A stretch of DNA of 57,478 bases. Origin: an uncultured Lachnospiraceae bacterium. Its GTDB lineage: Bacteria > Bacillota > Clostridia > Lachnospirales > Lachnospiraceae. Where the stretch lies: contig CALWHG010000009.1 in the NCBI GenBank assembly GCA_944380315.1, forward strand, positions 1 to 57,478, given 5' to 3'. This document shows, piece after piece, positions 18,121 through 26,552 of this stretch. Position 1 is the first letter of the stretch, and each line of letters begins with the position of its first letter. The notes under the pieces were generated by a model, which saw only the letters and a list, made by a program, of their open reading frames with translations, searched no databases and was not told the DNA's origin. The position numbers and the translations under genes are program-made.

Positions 18121-19287
18121 ATGTTTTCACAGAAGGTCCTTGACCTGGAGCAGGAGATGATAGATCTGAGGCGTAAGCTCCATGCAGATCCGGAGCTGTC
18201 ATTTAAGGAGTTTCATACTACAGAGCTCCTGATATCCGAGCTTCAGAAGATCCCCGGCCTTGAGATCCAGAGGCCCACTAAGACAGGAGTAGTAGCCGTC
18301 CTTAAGGGAGGAGCCGGGGAAGGACGCACCATAGCTCTCAGGGCCGATATAGACGCCCTCCCCATAACCGAGGAGACGGATGTGCCCTTTGCCTCCAAAA
18401 ATCCCGGAGTCATGCATGCCTGCGGCCATGACGGTCATACGGTCATGCTGCTCTATGCCGCCAGACTTCTGGCAGAGGAAAGGGATAAGCTTAAGGGTGA
18501 GATACGCTTCATCTTCCAGCATGCAGAGGAGCTTCCTCCTGGAGGCGCCATAGAGATGCAGAAGGCAGGAGTCACAAAGGGCGTGGATGAGATCTATGGC
18601 ATACATCTCCAGTCAGGCATACCCACAGGAGTCTTTGGGTCCCGCAAGGGAGCCCTCACCAGCGCTACGGACAGATTTGACATAAAGATCATAGGCAAGG
18701 GGGGACATTCTGCATTTCCCGAGACCTGCGTGGATCCCATGATAGTAGCCGGAGAGCTCATAGGCTCCCTTCAGACCCTGGTCTCCAGGAGCATAGCCGC
18801 AGTGGAGCCCGCAGTGGTATCGATCTGCATGATCTCCGCAGGCTCCGCCTATAACATCATACCCGGCGAGGTCAGCATCACAGGCTCCACCCGTACCTTC
18901 AGCCGCGAGACCAGGGCCAAACTCCCGGGGCTCATGGAGCGTATAGTAAAGGGCCTCTGCGACGCCCACGGAGCCACCTATGAGTTCAGCTTCAGCGAGG
19001 GCTATGCCTCCGTCATAAATGATCCCGAGCTCACCCGCATAGCCTCCGGTATCATCAGGCAGAGCTTCGGCGAGGACCACTACAGGGAGATAGACCCGCT
19101 GATGCCTGGAGAGGATTTCTCCGCATTCCTTCTGGACTGCCCCGGCTTCTTTGCAGATCTTGGCACCTTCAACGGAGATCCCAGGTACGGCGTGCCCCAT
19201 CACAACAAGCTCTACTGCATGGATGAGTCGTCCCTCAAATACGGAGTGCAGTTCTTCTATGATCTGGTAAGGGAAAGGCTGTCATAA
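18121..19287 (+). CDS. M20 family amidohydrolase (hippurate/N-acyl-amino-acid hydrolase type)
   Basis: Cytoplasmic zinc hydrolase that removes acyl groups from amino acids or similar amides; 388 residues, usual length. Metal ligands: HACGHDGHT (HxCGHDxH near 99-106), HAEELPPGGA with the catalytic Glu, and the C-terminal MPGEDFSAFL. The N-terminus LRRKLHADPELSFKE is diagnostic for the hippurate hydrolase / IAA-amino-acid hydrolase branch (peptidase M20D). Substrate not resolvable. Ribosome site GAAAGGAG. Divergent from ade, and followed by the palindromic repeat cluster. It is unusually rich in GC and in ATA/ATC mixtures but otherwise like its neighbours. Confidence 0.92.
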   Translation: MFSQKVLDLEQEMIDLRRKLHADPELSFKEFHTTELLISELQKIPGLEIQRPTKTGVVAVLKGGAGEGRTIALRADIDALPITEETDVPFASKNPGVMHACGHDGHTVMLLYAARLLAEERDKLKGEIRFIFQHAEELPPGGAIEMQKAGVTKGVDEIYGIHLQSGIPTGVFGSRKGALTSATDRFDIKIIGKGGHSAFPETCVDPMIVAGELIGSLQTLVSRSIAAVEPAVVSICMISAGSAYNIIPGEVSITGSTRTFSRETRAKLPGLMERIVKGLCDAHGATYEFSFSEGYASVINDPELTRIASGIIRQSFGEDHYREIDPLMPGEDFSAFLLDCPGFFADLGTFNGDPRYGVPHHNKLYCMDESSLKYGVQFFYDLVRERLS

Positions 19288-19300
19288 CAGCAGCAGATAA

Positions 19301-19444
19301 CAGATAAATACATAAGCCCGTGTATACCCCAGGGCCCTTTGCCTCTGCGAGGCGGCAGACACCAGATAAATACACAAGCCCGTATGTACCCCAGGGCCTT
19401 TTGCCTCTGCGAGGCGGCAGACACCCTGGGGTATACACGGGCTT
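19301..19444 (+). repeat. Tandem-duplicated palindromic repeat element (copies A and B)
   Basis: A 62-bp unit occurs twice in tandem (19301-19362 and 19363-19424, four differences), followed by a right arm (19425-19444). Each unit holds a left arm beginning AAGCCCGT and a 32-bp core beginning GGGCCCTTTGCCTC (19332-19363 in copy A). The right arm pairs perfectly over 20 bp with the far left arm (19314-19333) but with two mismatches to the near one (19376-19395). Inside the core GCCTC-TGC-GAGGC can fold. The element begins 13 bp after the M20 amidohydrolase stop and may act as its terminator. Confidence 0.9.
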
Positions 19445-19479
19445 TTATACTTATATGCTATCTGCAGATTCAATAGAGA

Positions 19480-19547
19480 AAGCCCATATATGTTCCGGAG
19501 TGTCTGCCGCCTCGCAGAGGCAAAGGGCCCCGGACATATATGGGCTT
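19480..19547 (-). repeat. Palindromic repeat element, copy C (inverted orientation)
   Basis: Same core as copies A/B but reversed (19499-19529), enclosed by different arms: AAGCCCATATATGT... (19480-19498) and its complement (19530-19547), with one extra T in the left arm. It lies downstream of the minus-strand oadB-oadG-like pair, facing copies A/B between convergent genes. Confidence 0.88.
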
Positions 19548-19572
19548 CTTATATTGATTATGAGTATCTTAA

Positions 19573-19689
19573 TTACTTATTTAGGGTCTTTCCAAGGAAA
19601 TAAACTATGGCGGCTATGATGATCATGACCACGAAGAGTCCCAGCATGCCCTGCCACATCATCGTAAGAGCTGTTCCAAGATTTGTCAT
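19573..19689 (-). CDS. OadG-like small membrane subunit (38 aa)
   Basis: Thirty-eight codons from ATG 19689 to TAA 19573: a short N-terminus (MTNLGTALTMMWQGMLGL), one membrane helix (FVVMIIIAAIVYFL) and a basic tail (GKTLNK). A strong ribosome site GGGAGGA lies 7 bp before the ATG, and the start is 18 bp after the oadB-like stop. Single-helix OadG/gamma-type subunits accompany the beta subunit of Na+-translocating decarboxylases and help assemble the complex; this one is much shorter than classical OadG (about 80 residues). It is shorter than most gene finders accept. Confidence 0.75.
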   Translation of the reverse strand: MTNLGTALTMMWQGMLGLFVVMIIIAAIVYFLGKTLNK

Positions 19690-24565: not shown

Positions 24566-24639
24566 AAGACCCGCTATATACCTTAGGGCCCTTTGCCTCT
24601 TTGAGGCGGCAGACACCCATAAGGTATATAGCGGGTCTT
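24566..24639 (+). repeat. Palindromic repeat element, copy D
   Basis: Arms AAGACCCGCTATATACCTTA (24566-24585) and its perfect complement (24620-24639) enclose the same 32-bp core as copies A-C (24586-24617), here with loop TTT instead of TGC between GCCTC and GAGGC. Lies between the 5'-nucleotidase stop and the MacAB promoter; the T-rich minus-strand flank makes a terminator role possible. Confidence 0.9.
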
Positions 24640-24663: not shown

Positions 24664-26487
24664 TTACTTTATCGTTATCCTTCCCTGTCCGTGAGGATCT
24701 GCATACTCTGCTCCTACGGATCCGCCAAGGTTCTCATTTATGTAAGCTGAGAGTGCGTCAACGTCCGTGGACACCTCATCTCTGATGATGTTGCTGCCCA
24801 TGAACATGTTCATGCCGTCTCCGCCATCCTTAAGGAGATAGTTGTGAGAAGCCAGTGTATAGGTCTTGTTCACATCAAGAGGCTCTCCGCCTACCATGAT
24901 GTCGTTGACTCTGTAGGCTCCGGTGACTCCGGTGAAGTTGCCCTGGGCATCGGTAGTCACTGAGCTGGGTACTGAGCTGTCCACCGTATAGGTAAGACCT
25001 GAAACATGCTGGAAGCCGCCGCTCTCCTCAGGATAGTTCCTTACGCCCATCTCAAGGCAGTCCTTGATCTGCTGACCTGTTACCTCGGCCACGCATACCA
25101 TGTTGCCATAGGGGAATACACTCAGGGTATCCTTGTAGGTGATGTTTCCTGCAGCGATATCAGCCCTTATGCCTCCGCCGTTCTGCATGCCTATGTCTGC
25201 TCCGGTCTGGATCCTGTAGGCATCGGCGCAGAGGTCTCCAAGGTTGGTCTCAGCCTTCCTTACTGCCCTCTGTCCCGTAGCGGGATCAAGAGTGGTGAGA
25301 TCTACTGAGGTGTGGCCCAGCACGGTCTCGAGAGAAGCCTCATACTGGGACTCTATACCGTCTATGTATGCCTGCATATAGGCATCCACGTTCCTGCCGT
25401 CCTCTGTTACTATGCTGCCTCCGGGGATGGTCAGTACCATGCCGGGAGTGATGATGTTGGGGTCCTTGATCTGTACCCTGTTGGCATCATAGATGACATT
25501 CCAGAGCTCATAGGAGCCAAGCACCCTCTTGGCTATACGGTTGAGGCTGTCGCCCTTCTGTACCGTATATGCGCTGCCTGCATCCGCACTTGCGGGCACC
25601 TCGGTCACAAGCTCAGTCGTGATGGTGCCGTCAGTCTTTATGGTCACCTTTCCTATGGAAGCAAGCTTGGTGCCTGTCTGTATCACGGGCACTGCCTTGC
25701 CGTCCTTGTTGTTGCAGGTCTTGGTATAGGTCTCGTGGCTGTGTCCGTCTATAAATGCATCTATGCCATTTGTATTGGCTATGACTGCCTCTGAGCTCCA
25801 CTGCTGATGTACGCCCTCGGTGCCCAGATGGCCTACCACTATGACATACTCAGCTCCTGCTGCCCTGGCTGCATCGACTGCAGACTGTACTGCGGCATAG
25901 AGAGCTGCGCCTGTAGCATCCTCACAGAAGCCATATATGTAGTTTCCTGCTCCATCCTGGAAATAAGCCGGTGATGACTTCGTAAAGCTCTCAGGAGTGG
26001 TGACTCCTACCATAGCCACATCCGTATCCTCATAGGTAAACATACGATATGCGGGGAATACCAGACTGTTGGTAGCAAGGCTAGTAAAGTTACAGGAGGT
26101 ATATCCGCAGTCAAGCTCTCCTGCCAGCTCAAGGAAGCGCGCCATGCCATAGTCGAACTCGTGGTTTCCGGGTATGGCAAAGTCATAGCCCATCTCATTC
26201 ATGATGTCCACAAGGTAGCCTCCGTCCGAAAGGGTACCTATGGGAGCACCCTGTATGGAATCTCCCGCATCCACCAGCATGACATAGGGCGTCTGCTGCT
26301 TCATCTCCTTTTCATAGAGAGCCAGGCCTGCGTAGCCTATATTGTCCTCAACTCCGCAGTGTACATCGTTGGTGTTGAGGATGATGATGTCCTGAGACGC
26401 CGCAAATGCCATGAAGGCGGAGGACAGGCTCAGGGCCGCTGCAAGCATGAGCTTTGCAGCCATAGATCTCATGGGTCTCTTTAACAT
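24664..26487 (-). CDS. Secreted 5'-nucleotidase/2',3'-cyclic phosphodiesterase with internal LysM domain
   Basis: 607 residues from ATG 26487 (ribosome site GAAAGGAG). Signal peptide to about residue 29 (ending AFMAFA). Metallophosphatase domain 33-290: NTNDVHCG, DAGDSIQG, PGNHEFDYG, GHLGTEG, DGHSHE, all metal or phosphate ligands of the UshA/CpdB superfamily. A LysM peptidoglycan-binding module sits at 306-356 (YTVQKGDSLNRIA ... NIITPGMVLTIPG). The 5'-nucleotidase C-terminal substrate domain follows (375-607). LysM between the two catalytic halves would tether the enzyme to the wall. It likely strips phosphate from extracellular nucleotides. Minus-strand gene upstream of the MacAB set, with a repeat element between. 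Confidence 0.93.
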   Translation of the reverse strand: MLKRPMRSMAAKLMLAAALSLSSAFMAFAASQDIIILNTNDVHCGVEDNIGYAGLALYEKEMKQQTPYVMLVDAGDSIQGAPIGTLSDGGYLVDIMNEMGYDFAIPGNHEFDYGMARFLELAGELDCGYTSCNFTSLATNSLVFPAYRMFTYEDTDVAMVGVTTPESFTKSSPAYFQDGAGNYIYGFCEDATGAALYAAVQSAVDAARAAGAEYVIVVGHLGTEGVHQQWSSEAVIANTNGIDAFIDGHSHETYTKTCNNKDGKAVPVIQTGTKLASIGKVTIKTDGTITTELVTEVPASADAGSAYTVQKGDSLNRIAKRVLGSYELWNVIYDANRVQIKDPNIITPGMVLTIPGGSIVTEDGRNVDAYMQAYIDGIESQYEASLETVLGHTSVDLTTLDPATGQRAVRKAETNLGDLCADAYRIQTGADIGMQNGGGIRADIAAGNITYKDTLSVFPYGNMVCVAEVTGQQIKDCLEMGVRNYPEESGGFQHVSGLTYTVDSSVPSSVTTDAQGNFTGVTGAYRVNDIMVGGEPLDVNKTYTLASHNYLLKDGGDGMNMFMGSNIIRDEVSTDVDALSAYINENLGGSVGAEYADPHGQGRITIK

Positions 26488-26552
26488 CCTGATCTCCTTT
26501 CCTGGCAGAAGGCCAAAGGACATACCCTTAACAGCCTTTGCCCGATATCATG

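Follow-up and report, generated by a model that had tools for sequence, protein, structure and literature searches.

A palindromic and possibly mobile element with a near-fixed core and covarying arms in two congeneric species of Clostridia

The window analysed here, a stretch of 57,478 nucleotides from an uncultured Lachnospiraceae bacterium, contains a long hairpin in three complete copies and a fourth, tandem copy that is truncated, and we propose, with about even confidence, that this hairpin is a non-autonomous palindromic mobile element of two congeneric species, of which one strand folds and which may also terminate transcription. The notion stems from the 29 copies found in the host assembly and the 9 found in a congener, from the narrow range, the covariation, an asymmetry between the strands, an extra base, an unbiased orientation, an inverted ortholog, the T tracts and a gene block bounded by two copies on contig C3; counting against it are the lack of a Y1_Tnp match, the lack of a readable target duplication, the retention of the core at orthologous sites and the low copy number. 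According to this proposal one strand would fold into a covarying arm of about 20 bp topped by the core GGCCCTTYGC ... GCNGCAGACACC and its covarying apical stem, with an extra base that usually sits in one of the arms, a few bp beneath the core. A putative trans-acting protein would recognise the folded core and would also copy or recombine the element, while the arms would mainly be required to pair and would otherwise be free in sequence. The copies may furthermore stop transcription both ways, as suggested by their siting mostly at gene 3' ends and their two-sided T tracts, and such two-way termination would account for their being tolerated by the host and for the persistence of pairing and of GC-rich feet. 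The initial annotation, which had offered a terminator, a small mobile palindromic element and a processing signal as candidates, is accordingly upheld in part: the architecture fits a terminator, the two-species range, the arm subfamilies in mostly unrelated flanks and an apparently gained block fit a mobile palindrome, and a processing signal or sense RNA is less favoured, given the unbiased orientation, one inverted ortholog and mismatches that favour the opposite strand.

The four cores reported for the window were all recovered in their places, at 19332 and 19394 on the plus strand, at 19500-19530 on the minus strand and at 24586 on the plus strand (Table 1). A 14-mer of the core, allowing at most two mismatches, has five matches in the window, where shuffled sequence has 0.62 on average and none of 100 shuffles reaches five; the fifth match, at 18382, lies within the 388-aa gene. 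The three complete copies fold with much greater stability than dinucleotide-shuffled sequence (z -7.74, -6.50/-7.02 for the respective strands, and -9.22), and the earlier statement that each arm pairs with its own partner is valid for these, but not for the copy at 19332 (z -0.60), which is a remnant made by the 62-bp tandem duplication. The left-arm stretch of this remnant is complementary to the following copy's right arm at 88% of 42 positions, as compared to 81% for that copy's own left-arm stretch. According to the gene calls the window copies are indeed intergenic and located at gene ends, and the suspicion that they belong to no named family is in agreement with Rfam 15, of which no family reaches its gathering cut-off anywhere in the window. 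When two element stretches were compared with Rfam, the matches were far under the cut-off and mostly to miRNA models, with some to sRNA or cis-regulatory models. Positions 19410-19514 match mir-670 with an E value of 3.3e-05 at 35 bits against a cut-off of 95, which is probably an effect of two long hairpins facing each other.

Table 1. Copies of the hairpin in the window and the genes next to them.
Feature	Coordinates	Strand	Remarks
Truncated tandem copy	19314..19363	+	left arm and core, no right arm of its own; fold alone z -0.60
62-bp tandem duplication	19290..19413	+	units 19290-19351 and 19352-19413, 89% identical
Complete copy 2	19374..19445	+	ortholog G001:C30:4310
Complete copy 3	19479..19549	-	orthologous copy G001:C30:4444
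Complete copy 4	24566..24638	+	pairing extends to 24640; antisense to its neighbours on either side
388-aa peptidase/amidohydrolase-type gene	18121..19287	+	ends shortly before copies 1 and 2; named by eye
39-aa small ORF	19573..19689	-	convergent; end about 20 nt from copy 3
619-aa 5'-nucleotidase-like gene	24664..26523	-	3' end faces copy 4; named by eye

Further copies, proposed from the start as a check on the family, exist in some number. In the host assembly of the window, G000 (2.19 Mb in 80 contigs, 95% complete), the core occurs 24 times with at most three mismatches and its reversed control not at all. A covariance model was built from 27 copies, 23 from G000 and 4 from G001, which is Candidatus Avilachnospira avicola, a congener of the window's species with an assembly that is 91% complete, and at an E value of 0.01 this model returned 30 rows in G000, where a single place appears twice, once for each strand, leaving 29 distinct copies, and 11 rows amounting to 9 distinct copies in G001. 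Included among the 29 are the truncated copy and C40:6339, which is degenerate; the score of the latter (25.7 bits, E 0.0096) is not above what intact copies reach when read on the wrong strand (19-32 bits). The genus to which both genomes belong is placed in Clostridia, Eubacteriales, and the element was found in 2 of its 25 genomes, the other 23, some of which are 53-87% complete, having no copy among the best 150 candidates scored per genome. No copy was found in 396 other genomes of the family, G000 being the only positive in a draw of 397 under stricter filters. In a genome collection of 84,980 species a loose core pattern matched seven stretches, four in A. avicola and one in each of three unrelated genomes, and these last three appear chance-like, since two of them score 15.7 and 13.9 bits and the third was unreported by the model, against 40.9-85.9 bits for the real copies there, of which the lowest is the truncated one. 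Viral contigs gave no match to the core pattern, and one plasmid collection and one phage collection, queried with one element, gave none either; a single viral match to a looser pattern was discarded, as it sits in DNA of 67% GC without such arms as judged by eye. As far as seen, the element thus appears to be confined to two congeneric species, and no published description of it was found by core words or by topic among the papers listed, judging from titles and the openings of abstracts.

The element is about 70-77 bp long and has arms of some 20 bp that are nearly constant in length, enclosing the near-fixed core parts GGCCCTTYGC and GCNGCAGACACC. In an alignment of 27 copies (A2), which leaves out the truncated copy and those found later, 20 of the 28 pairs are changed on both sides, the paired cells amount to 90.0% as compared to 72.2% when shuffled, and the covariation score is 0.464 against 0.151 when shuffled and 0.05-0.16 in slid controls, the register of the upper-arm pairs being approximate because MAFFT placed gaps in the arms. 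The covariation of the arms, which the initial annotation had read from a handful of copies and wished to see examined more broadly, is thus strong, and its contrast between covarying arms and a constant core holds insofar as the core is nearly fixed, but not for the apical stem between the two core parts, which covaries as well, one of its pairs being seen as T-A, C-G and G-C. This stem, taken to be a fixed GCCTC/GAGGC, is so within the window, but elsewhere it covaries, with the variants GCCCC/GGGGC, GCCGC/GCGGC, GCATC/GATGC and GCTTC/GAAGC, or is shortened, clearly so in three copies of G001 and by a single base at C8:10373 of G000. Certain sequence preferences recur in the arms, namely CC near the foot and TAT in mid-arm, the foot otherwise varying with a preference for C. 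Subfamilies of arms occur in mostly unrelated flanks, the exceptions being a duplication on C10 and the pair C79:3709/C4:14481, which has 161 bp in common. Three copies of one arm family (L131, L134 and L135, on C79, C4 and C20 of G000) have a gene with a weak match to PF12784 (Rpn-like) or remnants of such genes, two in number, nearby, together with partial left-arm repeats upstream, and this Rpn-like gene and the element may have moved together. A general tie to Rpn-type nuclease genes was considered and rejected, since there are only four PF12784 matches in G000 and the other copies have other neighbours.

The genes around the copies were called by a simple codon-usage script, as distinct from curated annotation, and on this basis 25 of the first 28 copies lie at most 100 nt from a gene 3' end; two more lie at 143-145 nt, and C6:32718 is the sole copy sited between divergent genes. 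In tandem contexts seven copies read with the genes and six against them, so that orientation is unbiased, and of the seven C3:30730 should rather be classed as convergent in view of a LysR gene next to it, and C10:668 and C10:8677 represent one duplicated segment. The remaining contexts comprise 12 copies between convergent genes, two without a called right neighbour and the divergent one. The fraction of T is 0.59 in the first 5 nt outside both feet and 0.28-0.29 at 40-60 nt, and at least five T in the 10 nt outside the foot are found in 78% of 37 copies on the core strand and in 70% on the other, against a window background of 8.6%. The feature of an intrinsic terminator, a stable hairpin followed by a T tract, is hence present on both strands, and since most copies sit near 3' ends and have T-rich DNA at both feet, they seem to be built as bidirectional intrinsic terminators and by their architecture look like predicted two-way transcription stops. 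They share with such terminators the GC-rich foot, the two-sided T tracts and the frequent position between convergent genes; ordinary termination, however, needs neither arms of a nearly constant length of about 20 bp nor a near-fixed, asymmetric core of 31 nt.

When left and right arms are compared on the core strand of 37 copies, there are 760 Watson-Crick pairs, 24 A.C, 9 G.U, 22 other mismatches and 31 gaps. Transitions are expected to make A.C and G.U about equally often, and the excess of A.C over G.U (24:9, p 0.0135, a signal drawn from 33 mismatches in copies of which some depend on one another) therefore suggests that the opposite strand either pairs better or mutates more as a single strand; two G.U pairs in the apical stem of C4:14481 would shift the tally to 24:11. 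Divided by transcription context, with labels assigned by hand, A.C to G.U is 5:1 for top-only, 1:0 for uncertain top-only, 6:1 for bottom-only, 2:0 for convergent and 10:7 for convergent/other. In 27 of the 28 gap events it is the right arm that carries the extra base, and 9 of the 37 copies have none. Taken together, the unbiased orientation, the inverted ortholog, the A.C excess and the one-sided extra base point to the recognition of one folded strand rather than to an element of the sense mRNA, and the folding strand is probably the complement of the one on which the core was read.

Seven pairs of copies in G000 and G001 have a common flank, and among these 8 of the 140 core positions are different, five of them within a single decayed pair, as compared to 41 of the 269 arm positions (Fisher p 0.006), a contrast that is biased by the core positions having been picked for conservation and two variable ones excluded. 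Copy 2 of the window has the same orientation as its ortholog, and 8 of the 40 arm positions that can be aligned between them have changed with pairing kept. Copy 3 and its ortholog have their flanks in common and arms that are nearly the same, but core and bulge face the opposite way; the apical stem of the latter ortholog is in addition shortened. A core that is held while the arms drift would be expected of a host function kept in place and not of a dead insertion, and this retention, its biased choice of positions notwithstanding, is an argument for regarding the hairpin as an RNA or terminator motif that the host maintains in its 3' UTRs, with a core that is protein-bound or forms a tertiary motif and arms that are free to covary. 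The siting of 25 of 28 copies near gene 3' ends, the T tracts and the covariation of the apical stem agree with such a motif as well. We nonetheless find it doubtful, since the orientation to transcription is unbiased (7:6), the inverted ortholog keeps its core, A.C outnumbers G.U on the core strand also in contexts where transcription seems restricted to that strand (5:1), and the motif would be present in only 2 of 25 genomes of the genus. At the site of copy 4 no copy was found in G001, G002 or G016 among the matches listed. The orthologous site in G001 (L162, G001:C30 9200-11700) has a 450-aa gene, MATE-type by eye, instead of the element, and the intergenic site has runs of 9 and 8 identical bases (C/G) at position 399 of L163 (G002 C103) and at position 523 of L164 (G016 C71). 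The element-free sites are too diverged for any target-site duplication to be read, and in the relatives examined they show no hairpin with the same arms as judged by eye.

Copies with at least 75% identity over 18 nt of the left arm were regarded as having the same arms, and 5 of the 21 pairs so defined are at most 10 kb apart (permutation p 0.0027; 3 of 18 and p 0.027 when contig C10 is left out), the other 16 being on different contigs; the contigs are short and claims of adjacency rest on a few kb. On C3 of G000 two inverted copies with identical arms bound a block of 3.35 kb, in which there are genes for a CitMHS transporter and an alpha/beta hydrolase as well as a LysR gene. In G001, G016 and G022 the genes outside the block lie next to each other and the element is missing between them, the left side in G002 is not collinear, and the block has no match in five relatives among the best 40 candidates scored, from which it appears to have been gained in G000. 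The intergenic DNA of G022 at this site (C67; L180, about 670-750) has three short CCTGCAG repeats about 33 nt apart. On C47 same-arm copies bound an ATPase_2/DUF234 gene, for which there is likewise no match in five relatives among the best 40 candidates scored. On C17 of G000 two copies lie around a 6.4-kb block of ABC-transporter genes, a metallo-beta-lactamase-fold gene and SurE, and G001 has the same outer genes with one copy between them that has the same arms. In G002 and G016 a SurE stretch is found beside a thrS-like gene (by eye, among the best 40 candidates scored), so that part of this block may be ancestral and lost in G001. On C10 of G000 (L125 668-883 and L132 2178-2394) a facing pair of elements that differ in their arms occurs twice at a distance of 8 kb, with about 150-160 bp of flank in common, and the two pairs lie around genes that by eye resemble those for sugar uptake and use.

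These blocks invite comparison with attC, that is, with a recombination site for exchanging gene blocks that acts as a folded strand with an extrahelical base, is sited where a gene block has its 3' end and flanks blocks by two sites. In favour of such exchange are the same-arm copies being nearer to each other than expected by chance, their flanking of the C3, C17, C47 and C10 blocks and the one-sidedness of the extra base; yet no array is seen, the fixed sequence lies in the apex, whereas that of attC lies in the foot, 16 of the 21 same-arm pairs are not close, the arrangement on C17 may stem from a loss in G001, and homologous recombination between identical repeats of 70 bp, which could have made the blocks, would yield similar ones, for which reasons we find the exchange of blocks improbable. 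That recombination takes place at the element as a folded single strand, in a site of a kind not described before, of which the apex is recognised and the arms are free and of which pairs add, remove or flip gene blocks between transcription units, seems to us improbable as well. Very improbable, furthermore, is that the core is a small insertion into pre-existing terminators that supplied the arms: arms differing among loci and followed by T tracts would suit it, but it is in poor agreement with a nearly constant arm length of about 20 bp, with the preferences for CC at the foot and TAT in mid-arm, with same-arm families at distant places and with element-free sites that by eye show no same-arm hairpin. 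Barely credible, lastly, is that the copies are REPs mobilised by a RAYT (Y1) transposase, which their palindromic, extragenic, often bulged and dispersed nature brings to mind, since neither G000 (95% complete) nor G001 (91%) has a match to PF01797, no GTAG/CGTC tag is common to one foot by eye, and the element is about twice the REP length of 20-40 bp.

The preferred reading, a mobile palindrome that folds as one strand, may nevertheless be set beside known systems. Palindromes of the REP/RAYT type, for REPs described as 20-40 bp in length, are reported to be bulged in some cases, to have complementary stem variants and to be thought of as recognised in the form of folded single strands (PMC3733652, PMC8266576). 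The element resembles them in being an extragenic palindrome, in some copies bulged, with complementary changes in the stem, but a REP has a tetranucleotide tag at one end and Y1 transposases, whereas the element is about 75 bp long with a conserved apex. Y1_Tnp (PF01797), also sought as the mobilising gene, has no match in G000 or G001, both of which are incomplete assemblies, and one is present in 15 of 25 genomes of the genus; the absence from either carrier led us to reject a RAYT/REP identity. Neither was a GTAG or CGTC foot, or any shared tetranucleotide beside the arms, found by eye in 38 copies. For attC sites it is described that structure is kept as sequence varies, that extrahelical bases occur on one arm and that one strand is preferred (PMC2727003). 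The element is similar in that its structure outlasts its sequence and in having an extra base on one arm, as found in 27 of 28 gap events and lacking in 9 of 37 copies, which is a resemblance and not a proof. It differs in that attC keeps its R boxes and varies at the top, whereas here the foot varies, the apex is fixed and no array is seen; boxes corresponding to R' and R'' were not found at the foot, which varies but for its preference for C. The element is finally like MITEs in being short, non-coding and dispersed with inverted repeats. The terminal repeats of MITEs are however common to the copies, and in the element it is the inverted repeats that are the variable part. By analogy it is perhaps akin to REP or attC as a folded-strand substrate.

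While REPs are tagged at one foot and attC sites are boxed at the foot, this family conserves the tip of a stem that covaries, and its 38 copies and seven orthologous pairs help to separate the parts that are candidates for recognition, the core and the extra base, from those that need only pair. Even if the element is merely an unusual terminator, strong covariation has arisen within a very narrow range, and caution is called for since searches for RNA motifs may collect mobile DNA. If a trans-acting protein is found, it would represent a new mode of recognising and moving folded strands, and if the recombination-site reading is true, the family would represent, in clostridia, a dispersed counterpart to the exchange of cassettes by integrons.
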